Assembly (NCBI GenBank): GCA_026390695.1
Contig: JAPLFL010000118.1
Location: 1 to 64,000 of the forward strand
DNA: 64,000 bases
Source of the DNA: Candidatus Kapaibacterium sp.
Lineage (GTDB): Bacteria; Bacteroidota; Ignavibacteria; Kapaibacteriales; UBA2268
Direction: 5' to 3'
Part shown: piece by piece, positions 43,743 through 48,226 of the stretch
Layout of the letters: each line of letters starts with the position of its first letter
Numbering within the stretch: position 1 is the stretch's first letter
Notes under the pieces: generated by a model
Seen by the model: only the letters and a program-made list of their open reading frames with translations
What the model was told of the DNA's origin: nothing
Databases searched by the model: none
Made by a program: the position numbers and the translations under genes

Positions 43743-43759
43743 TTTTGTAGCGGGGACAG
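43743..43759. repeat. attL: left attachment repeat
   Basis: TTTTGTAGCGGGGACAG, identical to 48149-48165. It holds the complement of the last 13 bases of the tRNA plus four downstream T. The intact tRNA gene is at the other end of the element. Confidence 0.8.
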
Positions 43760-43869
43760 CTATTTTTGAGGTCAAACATGAGAAAACAATGAATAACTAT
43801 ATATAGATTCTATCTGACTTATCAGAGATTCGACCTTGCTTTGTTTTCCCTTATTTTCCCTTAGTATGG

Positions 43870-43896
43870 AAATTTTTGTCCGCTATGTGTCCAGTA
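43870..43896 (+). repeat. 27-bp direct repeat, left copy (candidate integrase arm site)
   Basis: Identical over 27 bases to 48081-48107; core AAATTTTTGTCCGC then TATGTGTCCAGTA. A third, shorter copy (12 bases, AAATTTTTGTCC) lies at 43948-43959. All have the same orientation and would flank the attachment site in the circular form. Confidence 0.8.
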
Positions 43897-43982
43897 AAAA
43901 AATTATGTTTATATTGTAGCGGAGCCAAGTTCCAATTTTGATATAAGAAATTTTTGTCCAAGATTAAAAAAGGAAAGCCGCT

Positions 43983-45101
43983 ATGAGTGTGAAGGTACGA
44001 ACATTAGACCTTGCAGAAGGAAAAAAAATGCTGTTTATTGATATTTACCATGAAGGAAAAAGGAAAAAAGAGTACCTCAAATTGTATCTATATCCTGATA
44101 AGTCTGCATTGACTACACAGAAGAATAAAGAAACTCTTGCAGAAGCTAAAGAAATTGCACATAAACGGGCTTTGGAACTATCTGCCATTGATTACAATGT
44201 AGAAGTTAAACACAAGAAAAATGTTGATTTTGTCGAATATTTTACACAATTCGCGGATAAATACCCAAACAAGGATAAAAGACTTGTCACCAATACTTTA
44301 AAAAAGTTTATTGAATTCCTTGCAGTGAAGAATATTTCTTCTTTAACTGCTAAACAGCTTTCAGAGCAAATATGCAAAGAATTTAAAAAATTCTTAGATA
44401 ATCATTTAAATGGAGAAACTCCATACAACTATTTTTCCAAGTTTAAGAGAGTAGTCAATCAAGCAATAACGGATAAAATCATTAATGACAATCCTAATGC
44501 CAATGTAAGGAATACAAAAGCACTTGGATTGAAAAAGGAAATTTTGAACATAGATGAAATCCGTAAGTTATCCGCTGTGGACGTGATTAATGGTGAAGTC
44601 AGACGGGCTTTTTTCTTTTGTCTCAATACCGGTCTTAGATATTGTGATGTGAAAGTTCTGCAATGGAAAAATATTGATAATGATAGACTGATTCTATCTC
44701 AATCAAAGGTACAACATTCCTCACAATATTCCCAAATTATAAACGATTTGAATAATACTGCACTAAGTGTATTGGGTACAAGAGGCAGACCGGATGCGCT
44801 TGTTTTCAATTTACCAACTTTAGAATCATGTTTAATATCACTTAAAAAGTGGGCTGCTGCTGCGGGGATTGATAAAAATATCACCTGGCATAGTGCCCGT
44901 CATTCTTTTGCTGTCAATTTATTAACCGGTGACGTTGGTGGTGCGAATATTAAGACTGTGTCCGCTTTACTTGGTCATAGCTCCCTGAAGCATACTGAGA
45001 AATATACGCGTGTTATAGACGAACAAAAGAGTAAAGCAATTCATAATTTGCCTGATATGGTGCTAGTTTCGGGAAATTATATGAAGGGGAAGAAGAAATA
45101 A
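43983..45101 (+). CDS. Tyrosine recombinase (integrase)
   Basis: 372 residues. An Arm-binding/SAM-like N-terminal part (residues 1-180, with DFVEYFTQFADKYPNK and a helical core-binding region) precedes the catalytic domain. Catalytic residues: R in NTGLRYCDVKVLQW (about 218), HxxR in WHSARHSFAVNLLTG, H in LLGHSSLKHTEKYTRV and the nucleophile Y (about 341) in EKYTRV. It resembles the phage/Bacteroidetes transposon integrase group. AAGGA lies eight bases before the ATG. Placed next to attL, it should catalyse insertion in the tRNA(fMet) 3' end. Confidence 0.93.
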   Translation: MSVKVRTLDLAEGKKMLFIDIYHEGKRKKEYLKLYLYPDKSALTTQKNKETLAEAKEIAHKRALELSAIDYNVEVKHKKNVDFVEYFTQFADKYPNKDKRLVTNTLKKFIEFLAVKNISSLTAKQLSEQICKEFKKFLDNHLNGETPYNYFSKFKRVVNQAITDKIINDNPNANVRNTKALGLKKEILNIDEIRKLSAVDVINGEVRRAFFFCLNTGLRYCDVKVLQWKNIDNDRLILSQSKVQHSSQYSQIINDLNNTALSVLGTRGRPDALVFNLPTLESCLISLKKWAAAAGIDKNITWHSARHSFAVNLLTGDVGGANIKTVSALLGHSSLKHTEKYTRVIDEQKSKAIHNLPDMVLVSGNYMKGKKK

Positions 45102-45125
45102 ACATACATGGCACATTATAAAGTA

Positions 45126-45159
45126 TGGCTAAAACAGCTTTTAAAGCCGATTTTAGCCA
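45126..45159 (+). terminator. Stem-loop after integrase, probable terminator
   Basis: TGGCTAAAA (45126-45134) and TTTTAGCCA (45151-45159) form a perfect 9-bp stem followed by CTTTTATTTAT. It lies 25 bases after the integrase stop. The rest of the 304-base gap to the next gene holds a candidate promoter. Confidence 0.6.
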
Positions 45160-45335
45160 CTTTTATTTATAGAGGCAAGTAGTATGCTTATGAATCATTT
45201 AACCGAAATCATATTTTATAAAGAAAAAAAAATACATTCCAATAAACCTAAAAGAATCAAGGAATAAGAGAAAGTAAAAACTATAAAAGTAACCCTAAGT
45301 AAATAGAACAGTCGCTCAAAACATACTCATACGAT

Positions 45336-45364
45336 TTGACAAGCCCTTTAAAGTATAGTAATTT
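45336..45364 (+). promoter_or_regulatory. Candidate promoter of the element's HTH-rep genes
   Basis: TTGACA (45336-45341), 17 bases, then TAATTT (45359-45364) resembles a classical sigma-70 promoter. The same stretch also approximates TTTG-N19-(GTAA)TTTG. It lies 42 bases before the HTH gene start. Confidence 0.45.
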
Positions 45365-45405
45365 GCTTTTATACAAATTACAATTATAAACAAAAAAGGT
45401 GCAAA

Positions 45406-45660
45406 ATGAACAATCTAAATCTAAACATCAACGAAAAGGAAGTATTAAACTTCTCTGAATTCCTCTCCTACACTGGTTTTTCCAAAGGGTATGCCTATAA
45501 ATTAACTTCTCTTTGTAAAATTCCTCACTCCAAACCGTCCGGAAAACTTATCTTTTTTAAAAAATCAGATGTTGACTCGTGGCTAATGAGAAATCCTGTT
45601 AAGACCACAAAACAGATACAAGCCGATGCAGATACTTATTGCACTTTGAATAAAATCTAA
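45406..45660 (+). CDS. AlpA/excisionase-like helix-turn-helix protein
   Basis: 84 residues with a single winged helix-turn-helix of the HTH_17/MerR-like class: NFSEFLSYTGFSKGYAYKLTSLCKIPHSKPSGKLIFFKKSDVDSWL. Such proteins act as excisionases or as AlpA-type activators of integrase in small elements. AAGGTG lies upstream of the ATG. A gap of 79 bases containing a direct repeat separates it from rep, so it is probably in one operon with rep. Confidence 0.75.
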   Translation: MNNLNLNINEKEVLNFSEFLSYTGFSKGYAYKLTSLCKIPHSKPSGKLIFFKKSDVDSWLMRNPVKTTKQIQADADTYCTLNKI

Positions 45661-45711
45661 TGCTGAAAATAATTAAAAATATTCCCGAAACTCTGAATTC
45701 TTATAATAAGA

Positions 45712-45736
45712 TGTTTTTCATTACAGATTCTGCAAT
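45712..45736 (+). repeat. Direct repeat before rep (copy 1)
   Basis: TGTTTTTCA followed by TTACAGATTCTGCAAT. The near-identical copy at 46682-46705 lies just after rep. The repeat ends three bases before the rep ATG. Confidence 0.75.
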
Positions 45737-45739
45737 AAT

Positions 45740-46675
45740 ATGTACGACAACATAAATTGGATTTTAGATAAAAACCATACTCCTGACAATGACTTTTTAA
45801 GTGAGGTCACTCCATTACTTGAAAGGATGCGAAAAATTATTTCTTCTGAAGATGAAGTTTATTATACGGGATATATTGAAAATTTAAAGATTTTTGTTTC
45901 AAAAAATTGTGTGAAATTTTATGGGAATAGTTTGCCAAAATATTTTTTTGGGAATAATTTTGACACAATGACTCGAATTAATGTTAAAGATGCTTTTGAG
46001 AGAATCAGTGATACAATTTCCTTGCCATTAGATAAGGCAAGGATTACCCGTATTGATGTTGCACATAATATGGCAATGAAATATATCCCGACCATTTATT
46101 TGCCAAATTTAGGGACTTGTCGTCATTATGAGCGACTTCCTAATGAATCAAGTTTGTATTATCGGAATAAAAAGAGGCAGTTGATATTTTACGATAAGAA
46201 TCAGGAAGCTAAGGATAAAAAATTCCCAATTCCTATTTTATATCAAAATTCTAACTATTTACGATATGAGATACGATTTGAACATAGGATAAATAAACAG
46301 TTGGGAAAAAATGAAATTACAGTTGGGAATCTTTATGAAGAAAATTTCTATAATAAACTCAATCATGTATGGTTTGATAATTATGAAAATATTTATAAAA
46401 TAAAAAAAATTAACTTGGATTACACTATGGTAAAAACCACAAAACAAAGGCTGGCACATGCACTGCTAAAGGACATCCAAAGCGGTGGCGGTTTAGTTGA
46501 AGAACTAAATCGAATAACCCAAGCACAGAAACAAGGCATACTTAAACCGTATGAAGCATGTAGATTGAGAAAACTTGCTTCTGATGCCTGTAAGAACACA
46601 TTATTTACTACTGAGAACGAACTGATAACGGAATTAGATTCCCAAATAAAACAGGCTTGGAAGTATAATCAATGA
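45740..46675 (+). CDS. Phage/plasmid replication protein, pII/CRI-like
   Basis: 311 residues. The middle resembles rolling-circle initiators of the gene II/X (Phage_CRI) group: ITRIDVAHNMAMKYIP (about 95), RHYERLPNESSLYYRNKKRQLIFYDKNQEAKDK, then YLRYEIRFEHRINKQLG. The catalytic tyrosine cannot be placed with certainty. The C-terminal part (QRLAHALLKDIQSGGG) is helical. It is bracketed by a 24/25-bp direct repeat (45712-45736 and 46682-46705), a possible binding or nick region. It should let the element replicate after excision. Confidence 0.68.
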   Translation: MYDNINWILDKNHTPDNDFLSEVTPLLERMRKIISSEDEVYYTGYIENLKIFVSKNCVKFYGNSLPKYFFGNNFDTMTRINVKDAFERISDTISLPLDKARITRIDVAHNMAMKYIPTIYLPNLGTCRHYERLPNESSLYYRNKKRQLIFYDKNQEAKDKKFPIPILYQNSNYLRYEIRFEHRINKQLGKNEITVGNLYEENFYNKLNHVWFDNYENIYKIKKINLDYTMVKTTKQRLAHALLKDIQSGGGLVEELNRITQAQKQGILKPYEACRLRKLASDACKNTLFTTENELITELDSQIKQAWKYNQ

Positions 46676-46681
46676 AAAAGT

Positions 46682-46705
46682 TGTTTTTATTACAGATTCT
46701 GCAAT
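46682..46705 (+). repeat. Direct repeat after rep (copy 2)
   Basis: TGTTTTTA followed by TTACAGATTCTGCAAT, equal to 45712-45736 except for one missing C. It lies seven bases after the rep stop codon and 38 bases before the next gene. Confidence 0.75.
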
Positions 46706-46743
46706 CATTCCAATAATGGAATTTTAAAATATAAAATATAATC

Positions 46744-47109
46744 ATGAGTGAAACGAAAGAGATTCTTCTCAGGGAGATTGAAAAAAATTATGGAATTGTG
46801 TCAGACGCATGTAAGGCTGCAAATATAAGCCGGTCAACATTCTATAATTTAAAAAATTCTGACAAAGATTTTGCTAATGAAGTTGACACCATTACAGATA
46901 TTGCAATTGATTTTGTGGAATCAAAATTGTACAAGGCTATTGATGAAGGGAATATAACAGCCATAATTTTCTTCTTAAAAACAAAAGGAAAAAAGAGAGG
47001 TTACACAGAGAAACAAGAAATTGAAGTAACCAATGGCACTAATGCAATTGAATATACAAAAGAACAAATTTCAGCTATGGCAAAAGCATATTTACTTGAA
47101 AATGAGTAA
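46744..47109 (+). CDS. Terminase-small-subunit-like HTH protein (phBC6A51-like)
   Basis: 121 residues. The N-terminal helix-turn-helix is GIVSDACKAANISRSTFYNLKNSDKDFANEV (about 16-46), followed by AIDFVESKLYKAIDEGNITAIIFFLKTKGKKRGYTEKQ. This is the usual layout of phage terminase small subunits and phBC6A51-type proteins. In phage satellites a small terminase redirects packaging of helper phage; here it could do that, or act as a transcription factor. No large terminase is in the element. Confidence 0.68.
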   Translation: MSETKEILLREIEKNYGIVSDACKAANISRSTFYNLKNSDKDFANEVDTITDIAIDFVESKLYKAIDEGNITAIIFFLKTKGKKRGYTEKQEIEVTNGTNAIEYTKEQISAMAKAYLLENE

Positions 47110-47410
47110 ATATCTAAGTTAATTATACAAATTAGACACTATAAAAAAGGGAATTGATGTTAATACTTCCCTTCCTTCAATAATCACACTGGCAGCACAA
47201 AATTTGCAAATATTCGACCTTCATAAATCGTTTTAATCGGCTTTAAATTTACTGAGCCATACTAAACTACACCCTTTTAAACGTATTTGGAAGCGGTTAA
47301 ACATGAAATTTATTAAACTTTAAAATAATTATTTATAAAACGGATAACGAATTAAAAATAATTGTAAATTGCAATTCGAATAAACAAATTTTAATTATTT
47401 TAGGTGACTT
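47110..47410. other. Gap in the element, holds a stem-loop
   Basis: 301 bases. AAGGGAA (47147-47153) and TTCCCTT (47167-47173) form a 7-bp stem just after the HTH gene, a possible terminator although no T run follows. An AT-rich imperfect inverted repeat (AAAATAATT near 47354, AATTATTTT near 47392) lies shortly before the lipoprotein gene. Nothing else is recognised. Confidence 0.35.
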
Positions 47411-47902
47411 ATGAAAAAGATAATATTTTTAGTTTTAATAATTGTTTTTGGAGGATGTCATATTAAATTTTTCCCACCTGTGCAAAAACGTTCCATAAAT
47501 GAAACCACTTATAAACTGTCTAAAACAATTATTTTTGATAAATGTGTTAAATTTATGATAGAACGTAAGGTATTTCCTCAAGTAATAGACAAACAAAATG
47601 GAGTAGTCCATTATAAAGGTGATTTCCTTCAGATTTTAAAAATTTATCTTGATGAAAACGGCAATGACACTACGAATAGTGAGGTAATTGATTGCGGATA
47701 TTTTTCGTTTCAACAAAATATTAGACATGACTTAATAATAACCGGTGAAATAATAATTTATGTTTATGAAATTGATAATAGTTCATGCAAAGTAAATATT
47801 CAATGTAAAAAGGAACCGAATTTTACTAATTATGCTTATGACCAACAATGTATATCAACCGGACTTTTTGAAAGTAGCTTATATGATTATTTACAGAAAT
47901 AA
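47411..47902 (+). CDS. Lipoprotein, cargo gene of the integrative element
   Basis: 163 residues. The signal peptide KKIIFLVLIIVFGGC gives a lipidated cysteine at about residue 16. The rest is not a family I recognise. Its C-terminal half, DCGYFSF ... CISTGLFESSLYDYL, resembles the lipoprotein at 57773-58300 (DCGISKN ... CLSTGLLETEIFTYI), with similar length and spacing, so the two are likely homologous. As a surface protein on a phage-like element it could alter host interaction, for example superinfection exclusion, but nothing in the sequence proves that. Confidence 0.7.
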   Translation: MKKIIFLVLIIVFGGCHIKFFPPVQKRSINETTYKLSKTIIFDKCVKFMIERKVFPQVIDKQNGVVHYKGDFLQILKIYLDENGNDTTNSEVIDCGYFSFQQNIRHDLIITGEIIIYVYEIDNSSCKVNIQCKKEPNFTNYAYDQQCISTGLFESSLYDYLQK

Positions 47903-48080
47903 CAATGTCCGCCCGCTTCTATTCAATGATTAAATGTGTCACTACAAACCGAATCTCCTGGAATCAATTAGAAAATAATTTCATACTCCTAATCCTGATG
48001 CAGATGTTGAATATGGTCAAGAGATTCATCTCATTCTTAGAAATCAAGTAAAGATTATATCCGTAATTTGGCAGCACTGA

Positions 48081-48107
48081 AAATTTTTGTCCGCTATGTG
48101 TCCAGTA
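48081..48107 (+). repeat. 27-bp direct repeat, right copy (candidate integrase arm site)
   Basis: Identical to 43870-43896. It sits 42 bases inside the right attachment repeat, between the lipoprotein gene and the tRNA terminator. Confidence 0.8.
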
Positions 48108-48139
48108 TAAAATGAGAAAGCCCACTGGCAGCGGGCTTT
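48108..48139 (-). terminator. tRNA(fMet) terminator supplied by the element
   Basis: On the minus strand AAAGCCC (48139-48133) and GGGCTTT (48123-48117) form a 7-bp stem followed by CTCATTTTAT. It lies 15 bases after the tRNA 3' end. Because it lies inside the attachment repeat, it came with the element and replaces the one now at 43700-43735. Confidence 0.65.
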
Positions 48140-48148
48140 GACTATGTT

Positions 48149-48165
48149 TTTTGTAGCGGGGACAG
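48149..48165. repeat. attR: right attachment repeat, overlapping tRNA 3' end
   Basis: TTTTGTAGCGGGGACAG, identical to 43743-43759. Bases 48154-48165 are the end of the tRNA gene, so integration restored an intact tRNA. Confidence 0.8.
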
Positions 48166-48226
48166 GACTTGAACCTATAACCTTCGGGTTATGAGCCCGA
48201 CGAGCTCCCAATTGCTCCACCCCGCG
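48154..48226 (-). tRNA. Initiator tRNA(fMet), anticodon CAU
   Basis: Folds as a 73-base tRNA without encoded CCA. The 5' part starts CGCGGGGTGGAGCA, as in known initiator tRNAs. The anticodon stem-loop is CGGGCTCATAACCCG, with the three G-C pairs that mark initiators. The T arm is ATAGG-TTCAAGT-CCTGT. Position 1 (C) faces U72, so the first acceptor pair is unformed; initiators characteristically lack that pair (C-A in E. coli). The discriminator is A. The 3' end is the integration site of the 4.4 kb element. Confidence 0.93.

Follow-up and report, generated by a model that had tools for sequence, protein, structure and literature searches.

What kind of mobile element can be built from five genes, and how would it move between cells? 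The question is raised by a 4,423-bp element (both terminal repeats counted) that spans 43743-48165, att to att, of a 64,000-nt stretch of contig JAPLFL010000118.1 from Candidatus Kapaibacterium sp. (assembly GCA_026390695.1); this whole stretch is referred to as the window. Our reading, to which we give a probability of about 75%, is that we are dealing with a minimal tailed-phage satellite, which would replicate by a rolling circle and use its own small terminase subunit (TerS) to redirect the packaging of a helper phage. The reading draws on the att structure, the gene families, the family-wide architecture, an origin-like motif and a terminase slot in which types are exchanged. The boundaries were defined by the following features:

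43743-48165, no strand assigned: the whole element, with exact 17-bp direct repeats, one within a tRNA 3' end, and an architecture common to 26 other att-bounded elements
43743-43759, plus strand: attL core, a copy of the tRNA 3' end (exact 17-bp repeat)
48149-48165, plus strand: attR core within the initiator tRNA 3' end (exact 17-bp repeat and tRNA position)
48153-48226, minus strand: initiator tRNA-Met(CAT), the integration site (ARAGORN and sequence)
43870-43896, plus strand: left subterminal 27-bp repeat, a putative integrase arm site (exact pair; subterminal pairs occur in many other elements)
48081-48107, plus strand: right subterminal 27-bp repeat (exact pair)

The repeat at both ends is TTTTGTAGCGGGGACAG. 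Since ARAGORN places the tRNA gene on the minus strand, the right copy is its 3' end, and the tRNA is initiator-like as read from the sequence (1:72 unpaired, GGG/CCC anticodon stem). These ends had been recognized in a first-pass annotation made from the letters, and the exact repeats and ARAGORN bear them out. Near-identical tRNA-Met att cores occur in three independent elements of the same family, loci L058 (TTTGTAGCGGGGACA), L077 and L048, which makes four with the window. Subterminal repeat pairs about 70-140 nt inside the att sites are found in many family elements, the window element included, and probably serve as integrase arm sites. Five genes lie between the repeats, all on one strand:

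43983-45101, plus strand: tyrosine integrase, 372 aa (Pfam Arm-DNA-bind_5, Phage_int_SAM_5 and Phage_integrase)
45406-45660, plus strand: small helix-turn-helix (HTH) protein, excisionase/AlpA-like, 84 aa (phrog_25262, phrog_66 and HTH_17)
45740-46675, plus strand: Rep, 311 aa, Phage_CRI family with a RepDE-like fold (Pfam PF05144; Foldseek 4cwc)
46744-47109, plus strand: small terminase subunit homologue, 121 aa (phrog_309; tblastn to phage genes)
47411-47902, plus strand: small lipoprotein, 163 aa, probable cargo (lipobox in the sequence)

The integrase matched Phage_int_SAM_5 at 3e-16 and Phage_integrase at 6.5e-15. The HTH protein matched phrog_25262 at 2.8e-21 and the excisionase/regulator family phrog_66 at 1.2e-5; its match to HTH_17 (1.7e-5) is just below the family cut-off, and that to AlpA reaches only 0.05. 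Family searches with the lipoprotein gave no match, and they identified no phage structural or lytic gene among the five. The family searches and the lipobox agree with the gene set named in the first-pass annotation (integrase, AlpA-like HTH, pII/CRI-like Rep, TerS-like protein and lipoprotein), which had missed the 27-bp subterminal repeats, the origin-like motif before rep and its partial copy after rep.

The gene after rep encodes a protein that matches the small terminase family phrog_309 at 3.2e-13. By tblastn it matched a gene of phage vB_RanS_PJN03 lying directly before the large terminase gene, terL (2e-19, 47% identity over 90 residues), and the annotated TerS of Flavobacterium phage 1/32 (2e-14). 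The closest phage relative of the window gene stands immediately upstream of terL, which identifies this gene as a true small-terminase homologue; its product is predicted to bind DNA and the large terminase. In related elements the same position after rep, called the slot below, is used by at least four unrelated terminase classes. Terminases of phrog_2538/7344 are found in the slot of L008, L090 and L075 and as a second open reading frame (ORF) in L098, those of phrog_6299 occupy it in L043 and L046, and L058 has a Terminase_4/phrog_83 protein (44.3 bits against a cut-off of 24.7). DUF5681-type proteins often fill the slot; among 79 IMG/VR contigs with DUF5681 homologues, terL lies at most 250 nt downstream in 50, usually overlapping. 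The slot of L094 holds a phrog_2412 protein; in the Streptococcus phages EJ-1 and MismyG, homologues of this protein are encoded immediately upstream of terL. Indirectly, the data suggest that the proteins of the unannotated family DUF5681 and those of phrog_2412 are small terminases.

Terminase class is used here for small terminases and for phage proteins encoded next to a terminase. Of 63 loci, 35 have a slot gene of this class, whereas none of the 1,846 other ORFs of comparable size in these loci belongs to it; the count is partly circular, the seeds having themselves been slot genes. This circularity affects neither the terL-neighbour test nor the eight slots to which public models give a name. 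A terminase-class gene is the sole gene after rep in the compact elements L008, L074, L081, L090, L094 and L100. Moreover, closely related elements differ in the slot: the Reps of L068 and L075 are 84% identical and their slots hold a DUF5681 protein and a phrog_2538 terminase, respectively, and those of L057 and L058 are 74% identical with a DUF5681 and a Terminase_4 protein. That small terminases are exchanged while their slot stays fixed is difficult to account for other than by packaging with different helpers. The very reduced satellite in an FCB-group host that the first-pass annotation had put forward as one possibility is now the best-supported reading, given the phage relative directly before terL and the other terminase types in the slot of relatives.

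Some further observations concern slot genes and their homologues. In most of the IMG/VR contigs tested (L130-L209), DUF5681-type small proteins are encoded directly before terL. The DUF5681 genes nearest to the satellite versions (L130-L135, L141 and L142) lie in IMG/VR contigs with neither terL nor Rep nearby, possibly in other mobile elements, and in L140 (4001-8276) and L148 (3920-8275) the ORF after a DUF5681-like gene looks, on visual inspection, like one for a microvirus pilot protein. The protein of about 200-240 aa after rep in L039, L040, L079 and L095 has no family match and may be a packaging gene or cargo. The att-bounded L011 and L045 have no recognizable gene after rep and may rely on the helper terminase alone. 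MT839454 and MT840062, scaffolds of 4 kb from human viromes that contain TerS-like genes, were considered as packaged satellites; terL or other phage genes are present on them and Rep is missing, so they were rejected as ordinary phage pieces.

Rep scored 50.6 bits against Phage_CRI (PF05144), for which the curated cut-off is 21.7, and gave a weak match to Rep_trans (0.0096). Its AlphaFold model is confident (pLDDT 94.4), and the sole significant match among solved structures is RepDE, a staphylococcal rolling-circle initiator (4cwc; Foldseek E 3.9e-7, probability 1.00). In the alignment of family Reps, Y151, R175 and E177 are present in 66 of 66 sequences and D106 in 61 of 66; Y151 is the candidate nicking tyrosine. 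The first-pass annotation had held that placement of the HTH and Rep proteins outside phage families by profile searches would speak against a satellite. We judge such a placement a poor test, as the Rep fold is plasmid-like while the gene for packaging clearly derives from tailed phages.

Rep_trans relaxases and pT181-type Reps are homologous. This homology, together with the weak Rep_trans match and the RepDE fold of the window Rep, gives some ground for a mobilisable integrative element, in which Rep would be a MOB-T-like relaxase acting on the origin-like site, a conjugative element would provide transfer, and the TerS-like protein would be a DNA-binding regulator. The set of integrase, HTH protein and Rep is also like that of small integrative elements. 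However, the window element has no coupling, conjugation or other mobilisation gene besides Rep, and regulation would leave the recurrence of unrelated terminase families in one slot unexplained; we therefore regard such an element as improbable.

The remaining part of the putative replicon is the motif around rep:

45699-45740, plus strand: putative rolling-circle origin, nick-like TATAATAAG and palindrome 45720-45736 (model R1)
46678-46709, plus strand: partial, shortened second origin-like copy with palindrome 46689-46705 (17/17 palindrome identity; R1 11.4 bits)

Most family members have this motif directly before rep, with the consensus CTATAnTAAGnTGT followed by a palindrome nTTAC-N7-GTAAn. 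The palindrome covaries, with 12 cells altered on both sides, a number reached in none of 500 shuffles. The model R1 was built from 22 motif copies with the window left out. It scored 32.6 bits (E 5.7e-5) on the 42 nt before the window rep, which is the best match of the whole 4.6-Mb host genome; the next best match scored 12.8 bits in the 64 kb and 19.1 bits in the genome. R1 matched 43 of 69 family loci at E <= 0.01, some of the 69 having supplied training copies, and 12 of the 43 have full copies flanking rep on both sides. In a search for R1-type origins across the phylum, two of five genomes (L220 and L221) matched without a Rep, thus scores of about 30 bits alone can be due to chance. 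The layout resembles the core of a rolling-circle origin, at which Rep would nick. The main alternative is that the motif is an operator or promoter common to rep and terS. In the window, the palindrome of the second copy is identical to the first (17/17) and this copy is the third best R1 match; a second origin, a terminator or an operator shared by rep and terS are the candidates for its role. In many members (L063, L064, L068, L075, L083 and others), direct repeats of the motif stand on either side of rep.

Filamentous phage origins consist of a nick site followed by a palindrome. The same layout in the motif, together with a Phage_CRI Rep, could point to a satellite of filamentous (single-stranded DNA) phages, for which the pII-type Rep would make single strands and a filamentous helper would extrude them. 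This is very improbable, as family searches of the window element gave no coat, Zot/pI ATPase or other filamentous phage gene, the recurrent slot gene comes from the terminases of tailed phages, which filamentous phages lack, and the Rep fold matches a plasmid initiator.

The family to which the window element belongs was delimited through Rep. Of 395 genomes drawn evenly from the phylum, 20 (about 5%) have relatives by the Rep profile, with matches of varying strength down to remote ones, and a scan of 84,980 species gave 55 Rep loci. Rep relatives also occur within the taxonomic family of the window genome. Cultured carriers of compact members include Mediterranea massiliensis Marseille-P2645T (L067), Bacteroides sp. 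51 (L070) and Gracilimonas mengyeensis DSM 21985 (L040). The usual gene order is an integrase, sometimes a protein of 260-450 aa, the HTH protein, a protein of about 150-180 aa, Rep and a variable gene. The 27 att-bounded elements, window included, are 4,065-8,997 bp long (median 5,234). Nearly all of their delimiting direct repeats overlap the end of a tRNA or tmRNA gene, L011 being delimited by the repeat only; tRNA-Leu is the commonest site, followed by Met, Glu, Arg, Phe and tmRNA. On sequence evidence, these are a family of elements spread across Bacteroidota with a Phage_CRI Rep as the conserved core, so a pII-type initiator, which the first-pass annotation considered unusual in such a set, is the rule here. 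The limits of the element in L082 (3349-9411) are set by a 27-bp repeat that overlaps a tmRNA gene at its start. L013 (IMGVR_UViG_2921119228_000004), a viral contig of 78 kb, has a related element beside phage tail or lysis-like genes, and element and prophage may adjoin. The protein of about 150 aa between HTH and Rep is conserved in most members (L012, 2682-3143, and relatives); its structure model (pLDDT 90.9) had no significant Foldseek match, and the best VIA-align rows (Z 5.4, profilin/longin-like) were within noise. It is absent from the window element, as is the other usual protein, of about 265-450 aa, which makes the window element a reduced member of the family.

In the proposed mechanism, the integrase and the HTH/excisionase protein would excise the element from the initiator tRNA, and Rep, by nicking the origin-like site that immediately precedes rep, would start rolling-circle replication. 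With a tailed phage active in the cell, the element TerS would bind element DNA and recruit the helper large terminase. Helper capsids would then take up element DNA, most likely as a multimer, and carry it to another cell, where the integrase would reinsert it into the initiator tRNA. The element itself codes for no capsid, tail, large terminase or lysis protein.

The host genome has a terL at G000:C15:133261-134772 (L215:11262-12773), which lies among non-phage genes and represents a prophage remnant. Since this lone terL is all that the genome offers, an infecting phage would have to serve as helper. The isolated terL and the small size of the element are what could be expected if the element itself were the remains of a prophage in which terS had survived decay. 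This is the least probable explanation, since the open frames and att repeats are intact and 26 other att-bounded elements have the same compact core.

Several points weigh against the satellite reading. The host genome has no evident complete helper prophage. A search of 2.9 million IMG/VR contigs for the exact origin pattern gave no match, and phage records yielded no Rep, although collections of this sort select for phage hallmark genes; as single-protein queries against IMG/VR, Rep and TerS gave almost no matches and alignments were needed. No terminase was recognized in the slot of 28 of the 63 loci. Unit-length single strands are the usual product of such initiators, whereas packaging would call for a double-stranded multimer. 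Excision, nicking at the motif, helper induction, packaging and transfer are inferred from the sequence. Finally, without the two genes usual in relatives the window element could be a decayed copy. The family would then consist of satellites, and the window copy would be stranded with its mobility lost; this is consistent with the two missing proteins and the only partial second origin copy. Nevertheless, the 17-bp att and 27-bp subterminal repeats are exact, the conserved Rep residues are present, and the integrase, HTH, Rep and TerS frames are intact, which makes a stranded copy unlikely, though less so than the other explanations considered above.

For the family as a whole, we lean, with some reserve, towards an undescribed Bacteroidota-wide satellite family, among the smallest known, in which a rolling-circle Rep lies between two copies of its own origin and a single packaging slot exchanges unrelated small terminases to follow different helpers. 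The two origins could also yield rep-less or rep-only circles and so might provide a built-in means of switching between replication and packaging. The literature searched, in which the coverage of subscription journals and bioRxiv preprints was thin, contained no such satellite family from Bacteroidota. If the reading is true, a tailed-phage satellite needs little beyond integration, a rolling-circle initiator and one terminase subunit, and Bacteroidota host widespread parasites that searches for hallmark genes miss. Terminase exchange in a fixed slot would then be a natural record of helper use, making helper range predictable and testable.

Passages of a 2024 review name P4-like satellites, PICI, cfPICI, PLE, PICMI, VEIMEs, tycheposons and soil satellites, of 6-18 kb, and Bacteroides appears there in passages on mobilisable units (PMC11389934). 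The window element resembles the phage-inducible chromosomal islands (PICI/SaPI) in having an integrase, an AlpA-type regulator (as in the Gram-negative forms), a replication gene and terS without structural or lysis genes (PMC6092414). However, those islands are about 15 kb long and have a primase-type Pri-Rep, a conserved regulatory gene pair and genes for interference and capsid control, whereas the members of the window family are about 4-9 kb with a rolling-circle Rep and one packaging gene, and the window element has a single HTH gene and a Rep lacking a primase domain. PICI, the comparison drawn in the first-pass annotation, is therefore not a fitting name for the element, which is far too small and without a primase-type Rep. 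The phage-inducible chromosomal minimalist islands (PICMI) are similar in being very small, with 17-bp flanking repeats, an integrase and an alpA-type regulator and no capsid genes (PMC10803314). PICMI115, of 6,110 bp, has been shown to be packaged as multimers (PMC10803314), and PICMI replicate by a rolling circle, two traits proposed for the window element as well. In contrast, PICMI have an int/alpA/prim core, no identified terS, a fis site and Vibrionaceae hosts, whereas in the window family the Rep is of the Phage_CRI type and has an origin motif of its own, there is a terminase slot, integration is mainly at tRNA genes and the hosts are Bacteroidota; the window element has no primase. 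Since size and Pri-Rep do not fit PICI, and fis site, primase and the lack of terS do not fit PICMI, the window element was filed under neither. It shares the Rep sequence family and the origin layout with the gene II/Phage_CRI family of filamentous phages, but lacks their virion genes and carries a tailed-phage terminase gene. With the pT181-family rolling-circle plasmids (RepDE, PDB 4cwc) it shares the Rep fold and a rolling-circle initiator; those plasmids, however, are non-integrative and without integrase or terminase, and the sequence similarity is low (14%). The window element reads as one that works like a satellite with a plasmid-type replicon.

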